A program made the translations under genes and the position numbers. The notes beneath the pieces were generated by a model. It had not been told where the DNA came from and searched no databases. It worked only from the letters and a program-made list of their open reading frames with translations. A stretch of 32,966 bases of DNA, taken from positions 1-32,966 of the forward strand of contig JAFRBD010000036.1 in the NCBI GenBank assembly GCA_017405065.1, given 5' to 3'. Below, one piece after another: positions 13,414-25,403 of the stretch (positions are counted from its first letter, which is position 1; each line of letters opens with the position of its first letter). The stretch comes from Ruminococcus sp. (GTDB lineage: Bacteria > Bacillota > Clostridia > Oscillospirales > Acutalibacteraceae).

Positions 13414-13419
13414 ATATTT

Positions 13420-13640
13420 CGGCTGTGAAGGGACGAGCGTTTACGTCACCCGGTGCAGAGAGAGGTCGGTCGGTGAAAGACCTTACGGGAAGTATGCGCA
13501 GCCATCCCTGAGCCTCCGTGTGAAAGCGCGGCGTAACTCTGCGTTAAAGAGATCTGAGCGGTCGTATCTTTGATACGGCAATTTGGGTGGTACCGCAGGC
13601 CAAGCCTGTCCCATTGTTTTGGGGCGGGCTTTTTTTTAAC
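13420..13640 (+). promoter_or_regulatory. T-box riboswitch, alanine (GCC specifier)
   Basis: Stem I base pairs GGCT/AGCC and AGGGA/TCCCT (13429-13433 with 13505-13509). The specifier codon GCC (Ala) is at 13501-13503, followed by the usual A and then the closing helix. The AGAGAG K-turn-type element is at 13457-13462. The T-box sequence GGGTGGTACCGC (13585-13596) carries UGGU at 13588-13591, which pairs with the ACCA end of tRNA-Ala. The terminator stem AAGCCTGTCCCA / TGGGGCGGGCTT follows with an eight-T tract ending at 13638. Uncharged tRNA-Ala should favour the antiterminator and switch on alaS. Confidence 0.9.
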
Positions 13641-13641
13641 T

Positions 13642-13787
13642 AATGAGGAATTAGAAATGAGGAATGAGGAATTTTGAGAAACGCGTGAACGCGTTTCGGA
13701 TTTGTATTACATTTGATTATCACATATAAATCGAGTGAGGGCAGCGCCCTCCGTTTATTCCTAATTCCTAACTCCTAATTCCTAATT
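13642..13787. repeat. Imperfect 31-bp inverted repeat of heptamer arrays before alaS
   Basis: The right arm (13757-13787) is ATTCCTA, ATTCCTA, ACTCCTA, ATTCCTA, ATT. The left arm (13642-13672) is the same kind of array on the opposite strand (ATTCCTC, ATTCCTC, ATTTCTA, ATTCCTC). The arms match at 26 of 31 positions. Between them lie two perfect hairpins, GAAACGCG/CGCGTTTC near 13678-13697 and GAGGGC/GCCCTC near 13736-13750. The unit sits between the T-box terminator and the alaS ribosome site. Confidence 0.6.
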
Positions 13788-13809: not shown

Positions 13810-16443
13810 ATGCAGTATATGGGTTTGAATGAACTCAGAGAAAGGTTTTTATCCTTTATGGAGAGCAAGGGCCATCTTCGCCTTCCGAGCTTTCCGCTTA
13901 TCCCGAAAGACGACAACTCCCTGCTCCTGATCAACTCGGGTATGGCGCCGATGAAGAAGTACTTTACCGGCGAGGTCACCCCGCCGCGCAAGCGCGTGAC
14001 GACCTGTCAGAAGTGCATCCGCACCCCCGATATCGAGCGCGTCGGCATCACCGCGCGTCACGGCACCTATTTTGAGATGCTGGGCAACTTCTCGTTCGGC
14101 GATTACTTCAAGAGAGAAGCTACCGCTTGGGCGTGGGAGTTTTTTACAAAAGAGCTTGAAATGCCGATCGATAAGCTCTATGTATCCATTTATCAGGATG
14201 ACGACGAAGCCTATGATATCTGGACGAAGGAGGTCGGCGTAGATCCCTCCCATATGGTGCGTCTGGGCAAGGAGGACAACTTCTGGGAGCACGGCTCCGG
14301 TCCCTGCGGCCCCTGCTCCGAGATCTATTTCGACCGCGGCGCCGAAAAGGGCTGCGGCAGCCCCGACTGTGCCGTCGGCTGCGAGTGCGACCGCTTTGTC
14401 GAGGTATGGAACCTTGTATTCTCTCAGTTTGAGTCCGACGGCAAGGGCAACTATACCGAAATGGCAAAGAAAAACATTGATACCGGTATGGGTCTGGAGC
14501 GCCTTGCCTGTGTGATGCAGGGCGTGGACAACCTGTTTTTGGTCGATACCGTACAGAATATCATGAAGCACATTTCTCAGGTCGTAGGCGTGAAATACGG
14601 CGAAAACGATAAAAAGGATATCTCCCTGCGCGTTATCACCGACCATATCCGCTCCACCACCTTTATGATCGCCGACGGCGTCATGCCCTCCAACGAAGGC
14701 AGAGGCTACGTCCTGCGCCGCCTGCTCCGCAGAGCCGCGCGCCACGGCAGACTCTTGGGCAGGACAGAACCCTTTTTGTATCAGATCTGCGATACCGTGA
14801 TCAAAGAGAATGCTTCCGCTTATCCCGAGCTGGAGGAGAAAAAAGACTATATCACCAAGCTCATCAAAATAGAAGAAGAAAACTTCGCCAAAACGGTCGA
14901 TGCGGGTCTTTCGATGCTGGAGGATATCATCGATCGCGAGGAAATCAGCGTTCTCAGCGGTGAGGATGCGTTCAAGCTCAACGATACCTATGGTTTTCCG
15001 ATCGATCTGACCCGTGAGATCCTCGCCGAAAGAGGCATCAAGGTCGATGTCGATCGTTTTCATGAGTTGATGCTGCTGCAGAAGCAGCGTTCCCGTCAGG
15101 CGCGTAAAAACGCCGGCGCCGACGCGTGGGTCAGCGATGCGATCGATCTTTCCGATCTTTCTGCGACTTTGTTTGTCGGCTATACCGATGTTGCGTGCGA
15201 GAGCAAGATCCTTGCCATCGTCAAGGACGGCGAACGTGTCGATCGTGCGCAGGAGGGCGATACTGTCGTTATCGTTCTTGACCGGACTCCGTTCTATGCG
15301 GAAAGCGGCGGTCAGGTCTCCGATACCGGCGTGCTGAAAGCAGGCAACTGCGAGATCGACGTCGACGACGTACAGAAGGATGCTTCCGCCGTATTCATGC
15401 ACATGTGCGAGGTCGCTACAGGCACGTTAGCCGTCGGCGATACCGTAGACGCAAAGATCGACACGGAACGTCGTCAGGATATCATGCGCAACCATACTGC
15501 GGCGCATCTGCTGCAGGCGGCTCTCAGAGAAGTGCTTGGGAACCACGTTCAGCAGGCAGGACAGCTCGTTAACGAGGACGTCATGCGTTTTGACTTTACA
15601 CATTTTTCGGCGATGACAGCGGATGAATTGCTCAGAGTCGAAAAACGTGTCAATGATATTATCTTAGAGGGTATTCCCGTTACCTGCACCGAAATGTCTA
15701 TCGACGAAGCGAAGAAGAAGGGCGCTATGGCGCTTTTCGGCGAGAAGTACGGCGACGTTGTCCGCGTGGTCGAAGCCGGCGATTTCTCTAAGGAATTCTG
15801 CGGCGGCACGCATGTGGACAACACGGCAAAGGTCGGTATGTTCAAAATCAAGCAGGAAGGCTCTGTTGCGGCAGGCGTTCGCCGTATCGAAGCTGTTACG
15901 GGTCATAATTTCCTCAGATTCATCAATGAAGCCGTCATGATGATCGGTAAGGCGGCAACCGCTTTGCATATCAATAACCCGCTCGAGCTGGTTCAGGGAT
16001 CCGCGCGCGTTATGCTCCGCCTGAAAGAAGCGGAAAAGGAGATCGAAAAGCTGAAGGCTGAGATCGCTAAGGATCAGACCAGCGCAATCCTTGATAATGC
16101 TGAGGAAGTGAACGGTACAAAGATCATTACCGCGATGTTCAGCGGCGCGCCTGCCGATTCCCTGCGCAAGATGTGTGAGAATATCTCCGAGGTCGTTGAC
16201 GACGGCGTCGCGGTACTTGCATCCGTTACGGACGGTAAGCTGATCTTCTCCTGCCTCTGCACCAAAACTGCCATCAAGAAGGGTCTGAAAGCCGGCAATA
16301 TCGTTCGCGCGGTCGCTCAGATCGCCGGCGGCAACGGCGGCGGCAAGCCCGACATGGCGATGGCGGGCGGTAAGGATATCACCAAGGCTGACGAGGCGCT
16401 CTATGCCGTCAAGGGTATTATAGAAGAATTGTTACATCAATAA
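13810..16443 (+). CDS. alaS: Alanyl-tRNA synthetase
   Basis: Full-length (877 aa) class II synthetase that charges tRNA-Ala. The N-terminal catalytic domain begins LNELRERFLSFMESKGH, with motif 2 around RHGTYFEMLGNFSFGDYFK. The editing domain has the zinc ligands H562, H566 (HTAAH) and C664, H668 (CGGTH). The C-terminal domain ends with GGGKPDMAMAGGKD. The start at ATG 13810 follows GTGAGG; ATG 13819 is an in-frame alternative. Regulated by the upstream alanine T-box. A terminator follows directly. Confidence 0.97.
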   Translation: MQYMGLNELRERFLSFMESKGHLRLPSFPLIPKDDNSLLLINSGMAPMKKYFTGEVTPPRKRVTTCQKCIRTPDIERVGITARHGTYFEMLGNFSFGDYFKREATAWAWEFFTKELEMPIDKLYVSIYQDDDEAYDIWTKEVGVDPSHMVRLGKEDNFWEHGSGPCGPCSEIYFDRGAEKGCGSPDCAVGCECDRFVEVWNLVFSQFESDGKGNYTEMAKKNIDTGMGLERLACVMQGVDNLFLVDTVQNIMKHISQVVGVKYGENDKKDISLRVITDHIRSTTFMIADGVMPSNEGRGYVLRRLLRRAARHGRLLGRTEPFLYQICDTVIKENASAYPELEEKKDYITKLIKIEEENFAKTVDAGLSMLEDIIDREEISVLSGEDAFKLNDTYGFPIDLTREILAERGIKVDVDRFHELMLLQKQRSRQARKNAGADAWVSDAIDLSDLSATLFVGYTDVACESKILAIVKDGERVDRAQEGDTVVIVLDRTPFYAESGGQVSDTGVLKAGNCEIDVDDVQKDASAVFMHMCEVATGTLAVGDTVDAKIDTERRQDIMRNHTAAHLLQAALREVLGNHVQQAGQLVNEDVMRFDFTHFSAMTADELLRVEKRVNDIILEGIPVTCTEMSIDEAKKKGAMALFGEKYGDVVRVVEAGDFSKEFCGGTHVDNTAKVGMFKIKQEGSVAAGVRRIEAVTGHNFLRFINEAVMMIGKAATALHINNPLELVQGSARVMLRLKEAEKEIEKLKAEIAKDQTSAILDNAEEVNGTKIITAMFSGAPADSLRKMCENISEVVDDGVAVLASVTDGKLIFSCLCTKTAIKKGLKAGNIVRAVAQIAGGNGGGKPDMAMAGGKDITKADEALYAVKGIIEELLHQ

Positions 16444-16577: not shown

Positions 16578-18935
16578 ATGAAACGCTCTTTATCTGTTTT
16601 ATTGGCTATACTGATTATGTTCTGTGCGCTGCCGCTTTCGGCACAGGCAGTTGACAACAGAACACAGGCTGATACCGTAGCCGGAACATCTTATTATCCG
16701 ATTACGGTAAGCTGTGTTTACGATCCTGCTTCCAACACGGCAACGGTTGAATGGAGCGAAATCGCCGGTGCGTCGGGTTTTATGATTCAGCTGCTGAACA
16801 GCTTCGCCGATGGGTCAAATTATTCGCGCATCAGCAAGAGTGAGGTTTCTGTATCACATCAGCGTAAGGTCATGTTCGGCGCCGAGAGCTTTTCGGAATA
16901 CGGCTGGGGCGGAGATAAGTATTACGTTGAAGTGGTAGCGTACGGAGACGATTTAAATACCGTGATCGCTTCCGGCAGATCGAATATCTTCACCACCGAA
17001 TTGCCGATCCTTGACGAACCGCAGGAGGTCAAGCTGGACAAAAACGGCGTCGCCTCATGGAAGAGATCTTCTCAAGCCGATCTTTGCCGGCTGTACCTGT
17101 ATCAGCTTTCGGATGATGATCCGCTGCTTGTGATCGGCGTGGAGGGCGAAAGCTACGACCTTTCATCCTATATGGTATCGGGATGTTATTATTATATCAG
17201 AGTCCGTTGTGAAGCGTCCGGCTACCGCTTCAGCAATCTGATCATGTCGGAAAGCGTCGCTTTCATGAAGCAGAGTGTCAGCGGTATCTTCTGGAGCGAT
17301 TATCAGCTTAGCTGGTCGGCATATTCCGGCGCCGCGCAGTATCAGCTGATCCTGTATATCAGGGAACCGAACACCAAAGTTATCGGAAAGGTCACATCTG
17401 ACTTGAGTTATGACTTTACCGATATTTTAAACGATGTTTACCGTCAGTACGGAACCGTCAGTTGTTATGTTAAGGTCACTGCTTTGAGAGCCGACACGTC
17501 AGCTCTATCTTTGCCGACCGACAGCCCGAGTATCAGGACGGGCAAGCTGATCGACATAGCAGGCTGTACCATATCCGCGCCTGTAGGCAGAGAACACCCT
17601 GACTTCGACCCCGTCCCGCTTGACGGGTCAAAGTATTATGCTGAAGTGATCGACTGGTATCTGTATGAGGGCTCGTATCCTCATCTGACGGCTTCGGACG
17701 TATTTTCTCAGGGAAAGCGTTATGCCGTAAGGATCAGATTTACCGCGAAGGACGGCTACCGTCTGCAGGATAATGAGACGACTTATACGATCAACGGCAG
17801 TCATGCTGTTTCCGTCGGAAAACATACGAGAGAATTCGTGATGACCGCTTCACAGGGCGGTACGCTGATCACATCCGCCGGCTGTTTGATCACTGCACCT
17901 ATTGCGGGTCAAAAACCTGCGACGGATGCAGTATCGCTTGACAGCGGAAAATATGAAGCGCAGCTGAAATACTGGTATCTCAACGAGAGCCCTTATCCGC
18001 ACCTTTCATCCGGAGATACCTTTGAAGCCGGCAAGAAATATGCCGTGCGCGTGGAATTCGTCGCCAAAGATGGCTACCGCCTCGATAACGATAAAACTGA
18101 ATTCACGATCAACGGCAAATCGCCTCGTACGATAGGCAATAATATCAGAGAACTGGAAATGACCGCCGCCGACGGTATCGCGGTCAAAACGGTCGATTGT
18201 ACGCTGACGGCTCCCCGCGTGGGCGATCATCCCGATATGCACGCTGTTGCGGCCGACGATGAAAAGTATACTGCTTCAGTCGATAAGTGGTATCTGGATA
18301 CAGCCCCCGATTATCCTCAGCTGACGGAGAACGGCTACTTCCGAAAGGATAATAGATATGCGGTGCGAGTCGACTATATTCCCAAAGTCGGATACTGTTT
18401 TGATGAAACCACGGTGGTAAAGATCGGCGGCAATGACGCGATCCGCGTCGGTATTCATACATGGGAGTATGTGTTTGATGTGATGTACGCCGATATCAGC
18501 TTATCCGGCACCTGTGAGAGTTATATTGATAATTATACAGCGGTGATCCTGTTGTTCAAAGAGGGGGAGACAAAGGCTTCCTACCATACATATCAAAACG
18601 CAAAAATCTTCCAATACAACATACCGGATATTGAACCCGGTGTGTACACCGTAAAGGTTTCCAAGCGTGATCATGTTGCACGTGAATATACGGTTGATAT
18701 CCATGGCAGCACGCAGCTTGATGTGAAGCTCTGTCCTATCGGCGACGCGACGATGGACGGTAATGTCAATATGTTCGACTATAACGCGATCTACAAGCAT
18801 GTTGCCAAGACGTCTGAGCTGGAAGAAGGCTCCTATCAAAAGGCATGCGCCGACGCGACAGGGGACGGCAAGGTCAATATGTTCGACTATAACGCGATCT
18901 ATAAGCATGTCGCCAAGACGAAACCGCTGTTTTGA
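16578..18935 (+). CDS. Secreted multi-domain protein with C-terminal type I dockerin
   Basis: A 785-residue exported protein. A signal peptide covers about residues 1-25 (LLAILIMFCALPLSAQA). Fibronectin-like beta domains occupy about 35-320 (NTATVEWSEIAGASGFMIQL is typical). Three tandem repeats of about 105 residues follow at roughly 324, 430 and 536, each with a C.(I/L)(S/T)AP opening, a conserved W-Y-L, and a YAVR....(K)(D/V)GY segment. A beta-sandwich lies at about 640-718 and a dockerin at about 721-785. The dockerin has two calcium loops, DATMDGNVNMFD and DATGDGKVNMFD, each followed by the same helix YNAIYKHVAKT. The dockerin should bind a cohesin of a cellulosome-like scaffold. No catalytic domain was recognised. 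AGGAGG sits just before the ATG. Confidence 0.85.
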   Translation: MKRSLSVLLAILIMFCALPLSAQAVDNRTQADTVAGTSYYPITVSCVYDPASNTATVEWSEIAGASGFMIQLLNSFADGSNYSRISKSEVSVSHQRKVMFGAESFSEYGWGGDKYYVEVVAYGDDLNTVIASGRSNIFTTELPILDEPQEVKLDKNGVASWKRSSQADLCRLYLYQLSDDDPLLVIGVEGESYDLSSYMVSGCYYYIRVRCEASGYRFSNLIMSESVAFMKQSVSGIFWSDYQLSWSAYSGAAQYQLILYIREPNTKVIGKVTSDLSYDFTDILNDVYRQYGTVSCYVKVTALRADTSALSLPTDSPSIRTGKLIDIAGCTISAPVGREHPDFDPVPLDGSKYYAEVIDWYLYEGSYPHLTASDVFSQGKRYAVRIRFTAKDGYRLQDNETTYTINGSHAVSVGKHTREFVMTASQGGTLITSAGCLITAPIAGQKPATDAVSLDSGKYEAQLKYWYLNESPYPHLSSGDTFEAGKKYAVRVEFVAKDGYRLDNDKTEFTINGKSPRTIGNNIRELEMTAADGIAVKTVDCTLTAPRVGDHPDMHAVAADDEKYTASVDKWYLDTAPDYPQLTENGYFRKDNRYAVRVDYIPKVGYCFDETTVVKIGGNDAIRVGIHTWEYVFDVMYADISLSGTCESYIDNYTAVILLFKEGETKASYHTYQNAKIFQYNIPDIEPGVYTVKVSKRDHVAREYTVDIHGSTQLDVKLCPIGDATMDGNVNMFDYNAIYKHVAKTSELEEGSYQKACADATGDGKVNMFDYNAIYKHVAKTKPLF
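18765..18920 (+). repeat. Near-identical 48-nt direct repeat within the dockerin
   Basis: Copies 18765-18812 and 18873-18920, offset by 108 nt, differ at 2 of 48 bases, both silent. They encode the two halves of the dockerin. Confidence 0.8.
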
Positions 18936-19092: not shown

Positions 19093-19111
19093 CGATCATA
19101 TAAAACAATAA

Positions 19112-19133
19112 ACCCCCGAGGAAGCTCGGGGGT
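19112..19133 (-). terminator. Intrinsic terminator of rpmB
   Basis: Perfect 9-bp stem ACCCCCGAG / CTCGGGGGT with a 4-nt loop, just after the rpmB stop in the minus direction and followed by a U-rich stretch. Confidence 0.75.
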
Positions 19134-19146
19134 CGTTTGCTGTTGA

Positions 19147-19335
19147 TTAAACCGCTCTTGTTACCTTACCTGAACGTAAGCAGCGGGTGCAAGCGTGTAC
19201 TCGTTTGGGAGTGCCGTCAACAATAGCCTTTACTCTCTATACGTTAGGCTTGAATGTTCTGTTGGAACGTCTGTGCGAGTGAGAGACTTTGATGCCGAAT
19301 TTAACATCCTTGCCGCAAAAATCACATTTTGCCAT
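19147..19335 (-). pseudogene. rpmB: Ribosomal protein L28 gene with in-frame amber codon
   Basis: A 62-codon frame encodes a zinc-type L28: MAKCDFCGKDVKFGIKVSHS, then HRRSNRTFKPNV, then RVKAIVDGTPKRVHACTRC and a final LRSGKVTRAV. The four zinc cysteines (C4, C7, C49, C52) are intact. Codon 33 (19239-19237) is TAG, where the family usually has Gln in N-(V/L)-Q-(K/R)-V; CAG to TAG is one transition. Everything else looks functional: promoter, AAAGGAGG ribosome site, normal TAA stop and terminator. TAG is a normal stop in other genes here (scpA, gerW, the carboxypeptidase, the LPD1 gene). It may be a sequencing error, a decayed second copy, or read through by a suppressor. Confidence 0.85.
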
Positions 19336-19381
19336 GCTTGTACACCTCCTTTAAAAAATTAATACATGCATTAACTCGTAT

Positions 19382-19444: not shown

Positions 19445-19473
19445 TTGCTATTTTTGACGGTTTATAGTATACT
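19445..19473 (+). promoter_or_regulatory. Promoter of the site-2 protease gene
   Basis: TTGCTA (19445-19450), 17-bp spacer, TATACT (19468-19473), divergent from the rpmB promoter. Confidence 0.55.
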
Positions 19474-19524
19474 ATATTCTGTATTGATATGTCAATCATG
19501 TTTTGATCGATTTCAGGTGATATT

Positions 19525-20211
19525 ATGCTGATTCAATTACTTTCCGGCAGACTGGATTTCGCGTCAGCGCTGACCCAGGTGTTTGCGATCCTGCTCATCG
19601 TCTTTCTGGTGCTCCCTTTCCATGAGTGGGCGCATGCCTTCACCGCGATGAAGCTGGGCGATACTTCTGTGAAATATCGCGGCAGACTGACGCTGAATCC
19701 GCTGGCGCACATCGACCCCTTCGGCGCCTTGGCGCTCTTGCTGTTCGGCTTCGGCTGGGCAAAGCCCGTTCCCGTCGACGCGCGTAATTTTAAAAAGCCC
19801 AAGCTCTATATGGGAATCGTCGCACTGATGGGACCTGTCGCCAACATCGTCGCCGCCATCGCGGGCGGTTTGATTTTCCAGGCGATCAATACCTTTGCAC
19901 CGTCGTTTTTCTCAGGACAGGGCTTCGGGTATTATGTTTATCTGTTCTTATCCTATTATGTCTCGATCAACGTCAGCTTAGCGGTGTTCAACCTGCTGCC
20001 GATCCCGCCGCTTGACGGCTCCAAGATCCTGTTCATCTTCCTGCCCGATAAAGCGGTCATGTGGTTCTATCGATATCAGCAGATCATTTCCATCATCCTG
20101 ATCGCGATGCTGTGGCTTGGCGTGCTGAGCGTTCCGCTGAGCTTTCTGAGCGGTTATGTGCTGAAATTCGTGAACTGGCTTACGGCATTACCGTTCTTGT
20201 TCTTTAAATAA
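19525..20211 (+). CDS. Site-2 protease family membrane metallopeptidase (M50)
   Basis: A 228-residue membrane protease of the M50/S2P class. The zinc motif HEWAH is at residues 33-37 in the first helix region and the third ligand is D164 in NLLPIPPLDGSK. GRLTLNPLAHIDPFG after the first helix is characteristic of this short S2P group. It probably cleaves membrane-embedded substrates; the actual substrate is not evident. The start at ATG 19525 follows CAGGTGATATT. It heads the scpA-scpB operon region but is separated from scpA by a heptamer array. Confidence 0.9.
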   Translation: MLIQLLSGRLDFASALTQVFAILLIVFLVLPFHEWAHAFTAMKLGDTSVKYRGRLTLNPLAHIDPFGALALLLFGFGWAKPVPVDARNFKKPKLYMGIVALMGPVANIVAAIAGGLIFQAINTFAPSFFSGQGFGYYVYLFLSYYVSINVSLAVFNLLPIPPLDGSKILFIFLPDKAVMWFYRYQQIISIILIAMLWLGVLSVPLSFLSGYVLKFVNWLTALPFLFFK

Positions 20212-25245: not shown

Positions 25246-25403
25246 GCTCCCTGCAGCGGCAGTGTCATTAAGTTAAGAAGGGCTCCTTTTGGGAAAAGGA
25301 GCTGTCACCCGTTGGCGACTGAGGAATTGTACTCATTGACCGAGTGTCAGTGAGATACCATTTTCTTAACTTAAGGACATAGCCCTTCAACGGGAGCTTT
25401 TTT
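25246..25403 (+). terminator. Intrinsic terminator split by a small repeat element
   Basis: GCTCCC (25246-25251) pairs with GGGAGC (25392-25397), followed directly by six T residues. The loop of this would-be terminator contains the 117-bp inverted-repeat element at 25263-25379. Confidence 0.45.
25263..25379. mobile_element. MITE-like element with 17-bp terminal inverted repeats
   Basis: TGTCATTAAGTTAAGAA (25263-25279) and TTCTTAACTTAAGGACA (25363-25379) match as inverted repeats with one mismatch. The interior has no gene but holds a hairpin GCTCCTTTT/AAAAGGAGC followed by GTCACCCGTTGGCGACTGAG, resembling double-hairpin repeats seen in gut clostridia. No target duplication is obvious. Confidence 0.55.

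Follow-up and report, generated by a model that had tools for sequence, protein, structure and literature searches.

Genomes and phages in which TAG is read as glutamine exist, some crAss-like phages among them. Here we analyzed a TAG codon standing where glutamine is expected inside rpmB, the gene for ribosomal protein L28, in a stretch of 32,966 nucleotides (the window) that makes up the whole of contig C142 in a draft genome of 2,520,461 bases and 160 contigs, for which tool figures give 91.28% completeness and 5.3% contamination. In Escherichia coli, L28 is among the ribosomal proteins reported to yield cold- or temperature-sensitive mutants when deleted (PMC5390287), and the Bacillus subtilis protein is described as a late-assembly protein that stalled 45S particles lack (PMC4199504).

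The rpmB frame, which lies on the minus strand (the earlier note on this DNA gave no strand), comprises 62 codons and a stop and was translated as MAKCDFCGKDVKFGIKVSHSHRRSNRTFKPNV, an internal stop, RVKAIVDGTPKRVHACTRCLRSGKVTRAV and the final stop (Table 1). Its cysteines at residues 4, 7, 49, and 52 form two CxxC pairs, the second of which is downstream of the TAG. In a whole-genome search, the interrupted frame matched the Ribosomal_L28 profile (PF00830) at 1.2e-19 with one TAG inside; the Pfam score was 71.9 bits against a curated cut-off of 27, with the TAG read through by the tool, and a separate Pfam match was made with the intact rpmB homologue from genome G083. By its score and its two CxxC pairs the frame belongs with bL28, and the frame itself is interrupted by the TAG at codon 33. 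The AGGAGG motif stands nine bases upstream of the rpmB ATG, and a scan of the promoter-like site found 11 of 12 consensus bases. The elements that the earlier note listed as intact are all present: a promoter-like site and a ribosome site ahead of the frame, the zinc cysteines and the final stop within it, and a terminator-like stem beyond.

Table 1. Features of the rpmB locus, in window coordinates
Feature	Position	Strand	Evidence
rpmB, ribosomal protein L28 (zinc-ribbon form), interrupted at codon 33	19147..19335 (frame 19335-19147)	-	Translation and profile match
In-frame TAG, codon 33 of rpmB	19237..19239	-	Sequence; Gln in relatives readable here
rpmB ribosome-binding site AGGAGG	19345..19350 (19350-19345)	-	Sequence read
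Promoter-like site TTGACA-18-TATACT upstream of rpmB	19466..19495	-	Consensus match only
Intrinsic-terminator-like stem past rpmB	19111..19134	-	Consensus match only
Divergent neighbour, peptidase family M50 protein	19525..20211	+	PF02163

The M50 peptidase gene adjoins rpmB in close relatives too, with matches spanning both genes. Beyond the rpmB terminator, a 785-residue protein with a C-terminal type I dockerin domain is encoded at 16578-18935. Elsewhere in the window, a T-box leader (13416-13616) lies upstream of the gene for alanyl-tRNA synthetase (13810-16443). Between the T-box and the start of alaS, a 147-nt element (13641-13787) folds strongly and has repeated GGAATTA-like ends; 16 further matches to it, most of them partial, occur in 877 kb of the genome. 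A second strongly folded intergenic element, of 126 nt (25259-25384; z about -6), carries long terminal inverted repeats; it gave no Rfam match at the gathering score and has 13 other partial or full matches in the same 877 kb, with many in relatives.

Codon 33 encodes glutamine in all 95 rpmB loci that could be read there (93 CAG and 2 CAA). These loci represent 95 different genomes and were drawn from 100 given to the script, the other five being unreadable at this codon (four contig-end fragments and the rpmB of G126, which is without a start). T at rpmB position 97 occurs in none of the 95. The sequence thus bears out the claim that TAG stands where homologues have glutamine, and the codon-33 TAG is absent from every readable relative. 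Glutamine also occupies this place in the two best solved-structure matches (9qt5 and 5o60). Within a genus sample of 100 genomes that included the window's own, 91 had an L28 match, an internal stop in L28 was reported for the window's genome only, and all 50 genomes with at least 90% completeness and at most 5% contamination had a match.

In the nearest relatives, G107 (88% over 1,151 bases) and G083 (85%), the L28 residues are those of the window's frame at every one of the 62 codons but codon 33. Across the 189 bases, rpmB of the window differs from G107 at seven positions and from G083 at six, all of them synonymous save the one that makes the TAG: the synonymous differences fall at 48 (G107 only), 60, 96, 129, 153, and 186, and that at 97 creates the stop. 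The window's bases at 60, 96, 129, and 153 were found in 1, 46, 22, and 7 of the 95 loci, respectively, such that position 97, with its unshared T, neighbours a position whose base is common in the genus. Given that the protein of the nearest relatives is otherwise identical and that relatives carry glutamine, selection appears to have kept rpmB until very recently. These alignments suggest a gene that either remains under full selection or left it only very recently, and a TAG change that is either very recent or absent from the living genome.

We also looked for the TAG more widely. A degenerate TAG pattern scanned against genome_contigs returned seven matches, none of them L28; the pattern fixed Asn-x-TAG-x-Val and so covered only some L28 sequences, and the scan perhaps omitted records close to the genome of the window. 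Two patterns run against viral_contigs for a TAG shared with phage gave no matches. Separately, three rpmB matches were seen in unannotated phage records from faecal samples. An L28 search of 398 family genomes showed no stops among the matches listed, which were the best ones and do not amount to a stop count. When 23 family genomes, picked for an L28 that was absent or partial in that search, were re-examined, 11 matched at E values up to 1, six of these being L28 pieces at contig ends (G535, G330, G403, G540, G464, and G407).

To judge recoding, we set 877 kb of the window's genome, including the window itself, against 778 kb of G107. First stop counts were swollen by shadow frames and by stretches ahead of the real start; we therefore relied on the 133 of 159 gene matches whose codon-position pattern was that of a true frame (124 kb, with 26 dropped) and judged their remaining stops by eye. 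Codon 33 of rpmB was the only internal stop judged genuine and the only one within a well-conserved stretch. The others lay ahead of what is probably the real start or within the final codons of a gene, a stop at residue 47 of 366 (L155) being the less clear case, and similar 5' stops appeared in G107 in the reverse comparison of 136 real-frame genes. TAG was the natural stop of 11 of the 118 genes with a readable end (a count made on the 159 matches, shadow frames still included), and in eight of those G107 has TAA or TGA. On the strength of one genuine internal stop in 133 genes and TAG ending 11 of 118, recoding of TAG was rejected, and the opinion in the earlier note that general recoding is unlikely was upheld. 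The mark of a programmed readthrough site, a stop conserved at the same codon in relatives, was seen in 0 of the 95 readable loci. The codon-33 TAG most likely does not reflect a novel decoding of TAG.

The TAG might instead be suppressed or read through, by a mutant or borrowed CUA tRNA or by near-cognate reading, to yield full-length L28. This would accord with an rpmB protein sequence that is unchanged elsewhere, including downstream of the TAG. The draft genome gave 25 tRNA matches, a set that is incomplete since several ordinary tRNAs are absent, and at 91% completeness a suppressor could sit in the missing part. ARAGORN was given 22 of the 25 loci (L036 and L047 appear in their neighbours' output), and L044, L053, and L056 were read from Rfam alignments; by eye, the anticodon of L044 is CCC and that of L056 (29 bits) is GTA. 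No CUA anticodon was present in 24 of the 25 matches of this incomplete set, the anticodon of L053 being unreadable. That locus (1501-1615; G000 C159 34455-34569) is tRNA-like with about 40 extra bases, including a hairpin, in the anticodon arm; it was not called by ARAGORN, and the insert lies near the anticodon. Against suppression stand the other 24 tRNAs, the natural use of TAG as a terminator (eight of the 11 cases being TAA or TGA in G107), the lack of a second genuine in-frame TAG in the 133 genes, and the fact that the codon-33 stop is not common to relatives. The amber-suppressing tRNA that the earlier note had listed was thus not seen among the 24 readable matches of an incomplete set, and suppression retains a very small probability.

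The same note had offered a dispensable copy with another L28 elsewhere. One L28 match was found in the draft genome and no second, a weak test at 91% completeness, and an intact second L28, whether a zinc-independent paralogue or a duplicate, could lie in the unassembled part. However, a single L28 was present in each of the single-contig relatives G068 and G101 and likewise in each of G107 and G083, and the only two of the 100 genus genomes with two L28 matches (G005 and G050) owe the second to a contig-end fragment. We regard a hidden second copy as highly improbable. The interpretation in the earlier note was thus borne out in part: its doubt about recoding was sound, and of its three options (base-call error, other copy, and suppressor) the other copy is unlikely.

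Lesions of rpmB were not confined to the window's genome. Full-length rpmB genes were counted from 137 genus genomes (86 in the genus sample, 40 more read by place, and 11 further loci). The reading of those 40 brought up G121 (C131 1027-1215, L291), which has a nonsense TAA at codon 20 with further residue changes, and G126 (C54, L292), which is without ribosome site and start. In addition, G092 (C5, L290) and G085 (C30, L294) have in-frame losses of 45 and 60 nt, respectively, with the four cysteines kept in both. By eye, the bases shared at these two deletion joins are few, fewer than an ordinary k-mer join would need. The L27 and L35 genes served as controls in 140 genomes. L27 was matched in 126 of them, none with an internal stop (G027 was split by a frame change; G074 and G131 were partial), and L35 in 124, again with no stop (G139 was split; G004 and G117 were partial or at a contig start). 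The difference in nonsense codons, 2 of 137 rpmB loci versus 0 of 250 control matches, was not significant (p 0.12). All five lesion genomes have more than 80 contigs, a number exceeded by 92 of the 161 genomes; the chance of this is 0.058, under a cut that was set once the data were known.

Contigs also break within this gene. At least 14 of 161 genus genomes have a contig end inside rpmB (G004, G005, G007, G013, G038, G050, and G082; further, G117, G132, G134, G135, G136, G137, and G145), versus 4.1 expected from an even spread (Poisson 1e-4). Contig ends within the 189 bases are at about three times expectation, and several of them fall at nt 68-79 (e.g., L295-L303 and L311). The proportion of pairs sharing exact 31-mers was 31.5% among 30 rpmB loci and 28.7% among all 95. 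Among 30 stretches of equal length from the L27 gene, which come from a differing set of genomes, it was 13.8%. The breaks in rpmB are likely due to this exact sequence shared between species. Two lines of reasoning about the assembly were given up. The 27-mers across the TAG were dropped as support for the contig, being unshared simply because the T is, and a join of two near relatives was unsupported, as the window's rpmB differs from both G107 and G083 at 60, ahead of the stop, and at 96, 129, and 153, beside or past it.

Taking these observations together, the C-to-T difference is isolated and probably stems from a consensus error or from a rare harmful allele. A single base turns the glutamine codon into TAG, and the fragmented draft yielded no rpmB copy besides this one. 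Taken at face value, the sequence would be translated for 32 residues only, and since the resulting peptide would be without the second cysteine pair, it would not be a working L28. The population most likely still makes L28, with the T either introduced as a consensus error or picked up by the assembly from a rare harmful allele. What favours this is glutamine in 95 of 95 loci together with an otherwise unchanged protein in the nearest relatives, the only genuine internal stop in 133 genes and 124 kb, an L28 match in each of the 50 better genus genomes, and, at the level of assembly, the excess of contig breaks in rpmB, its 31-mer sharing, and the fragmentation of the lesion genomes. We infer that an error or rare allele, rather than a fixed and tolerated loss, is the most likely origin of the TAG. 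Some evidence runs the other way. The contig looks clean, in that no other in-frame stop or disrupted gene in the window was judged genuine against relatives, and the bases around the TAG fit no simple join of two near relatives; both speak against an artefact, as does the scarcity of shared bases at the G085 and G092 deletion joins.

The four other genus genomes with rpmB lesions, set beside L27 and L35 genes free of stops, could mean that loss of L28 is tolerated, which would count against the favoured reading. Next in order of probability, though doubtful, is a genuine loss that became fixed recently in this strain, whose ribosomes would assemble without L28 at the price of slower or cold-sensitive growth. 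It would be in keeping with the variety of the lesions in G121, G126, G092, and G085, with joins in two of them that share too few bases for an ordinary k-mer join, with the absence of stops from the matched L27 (126 of 140) and L35 (124 of 140) genes, and with the E. coli deletion phenotype, which suggests that loss may be survivable (PMC5390287). It fits poorly with the lack of any nonsynonymous change elsewhere in rpmB relative to the nearest relatives, with the confinement of all five lesions to fragmented drafts, and with a nonsense excess that is not significant (p 0.12); moreover, a late-assembly protein, as L28 is described for B. subtilis (PMC4199504), should cost fitness when lost. 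The broader proposition that L28 is conditionally dispensable in the genus, with rpmB repeatedly lost or remodelled (by nonsense change, central in-frame deletion, or loss of the start) and the TAG one of at least five natural alleles, seems unlikely to us.

Should the TAG be an error or a rare allele, the lesson is one of caution only: rpmB lesions in drafts of this genus need checking against reads. Should the recurrent lesions be real, they would show that a ribosomal protein that is conserved as a rule can be dispensed with in nature, and direct tests could establish which ribosomes do without it.

Set against known systems, the locus resembles the genomes and phages that read TAG as glutamine in having TAG at a place in rpmB where glutamine is expected; it differs from them in that TAG is here a normal terminator and no other genuine in-frame TAG occurs in the compared genes. 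To the four-cysteine form of bL28/rpmB (PF00830) it is alike in its over-cut-off score, four cysteines, start, ribosome site, and terminator, and unlike in a frame broken by the TAG at codon 33. With an ordinary nonsense mutation, pseudogene, or metagenome consensus error it shares a single unshared transition, a stop that is not conserved, and no signs of recoding, differing in that the change strikes a normally conserved ribosomal gene that is apparently single-copy.
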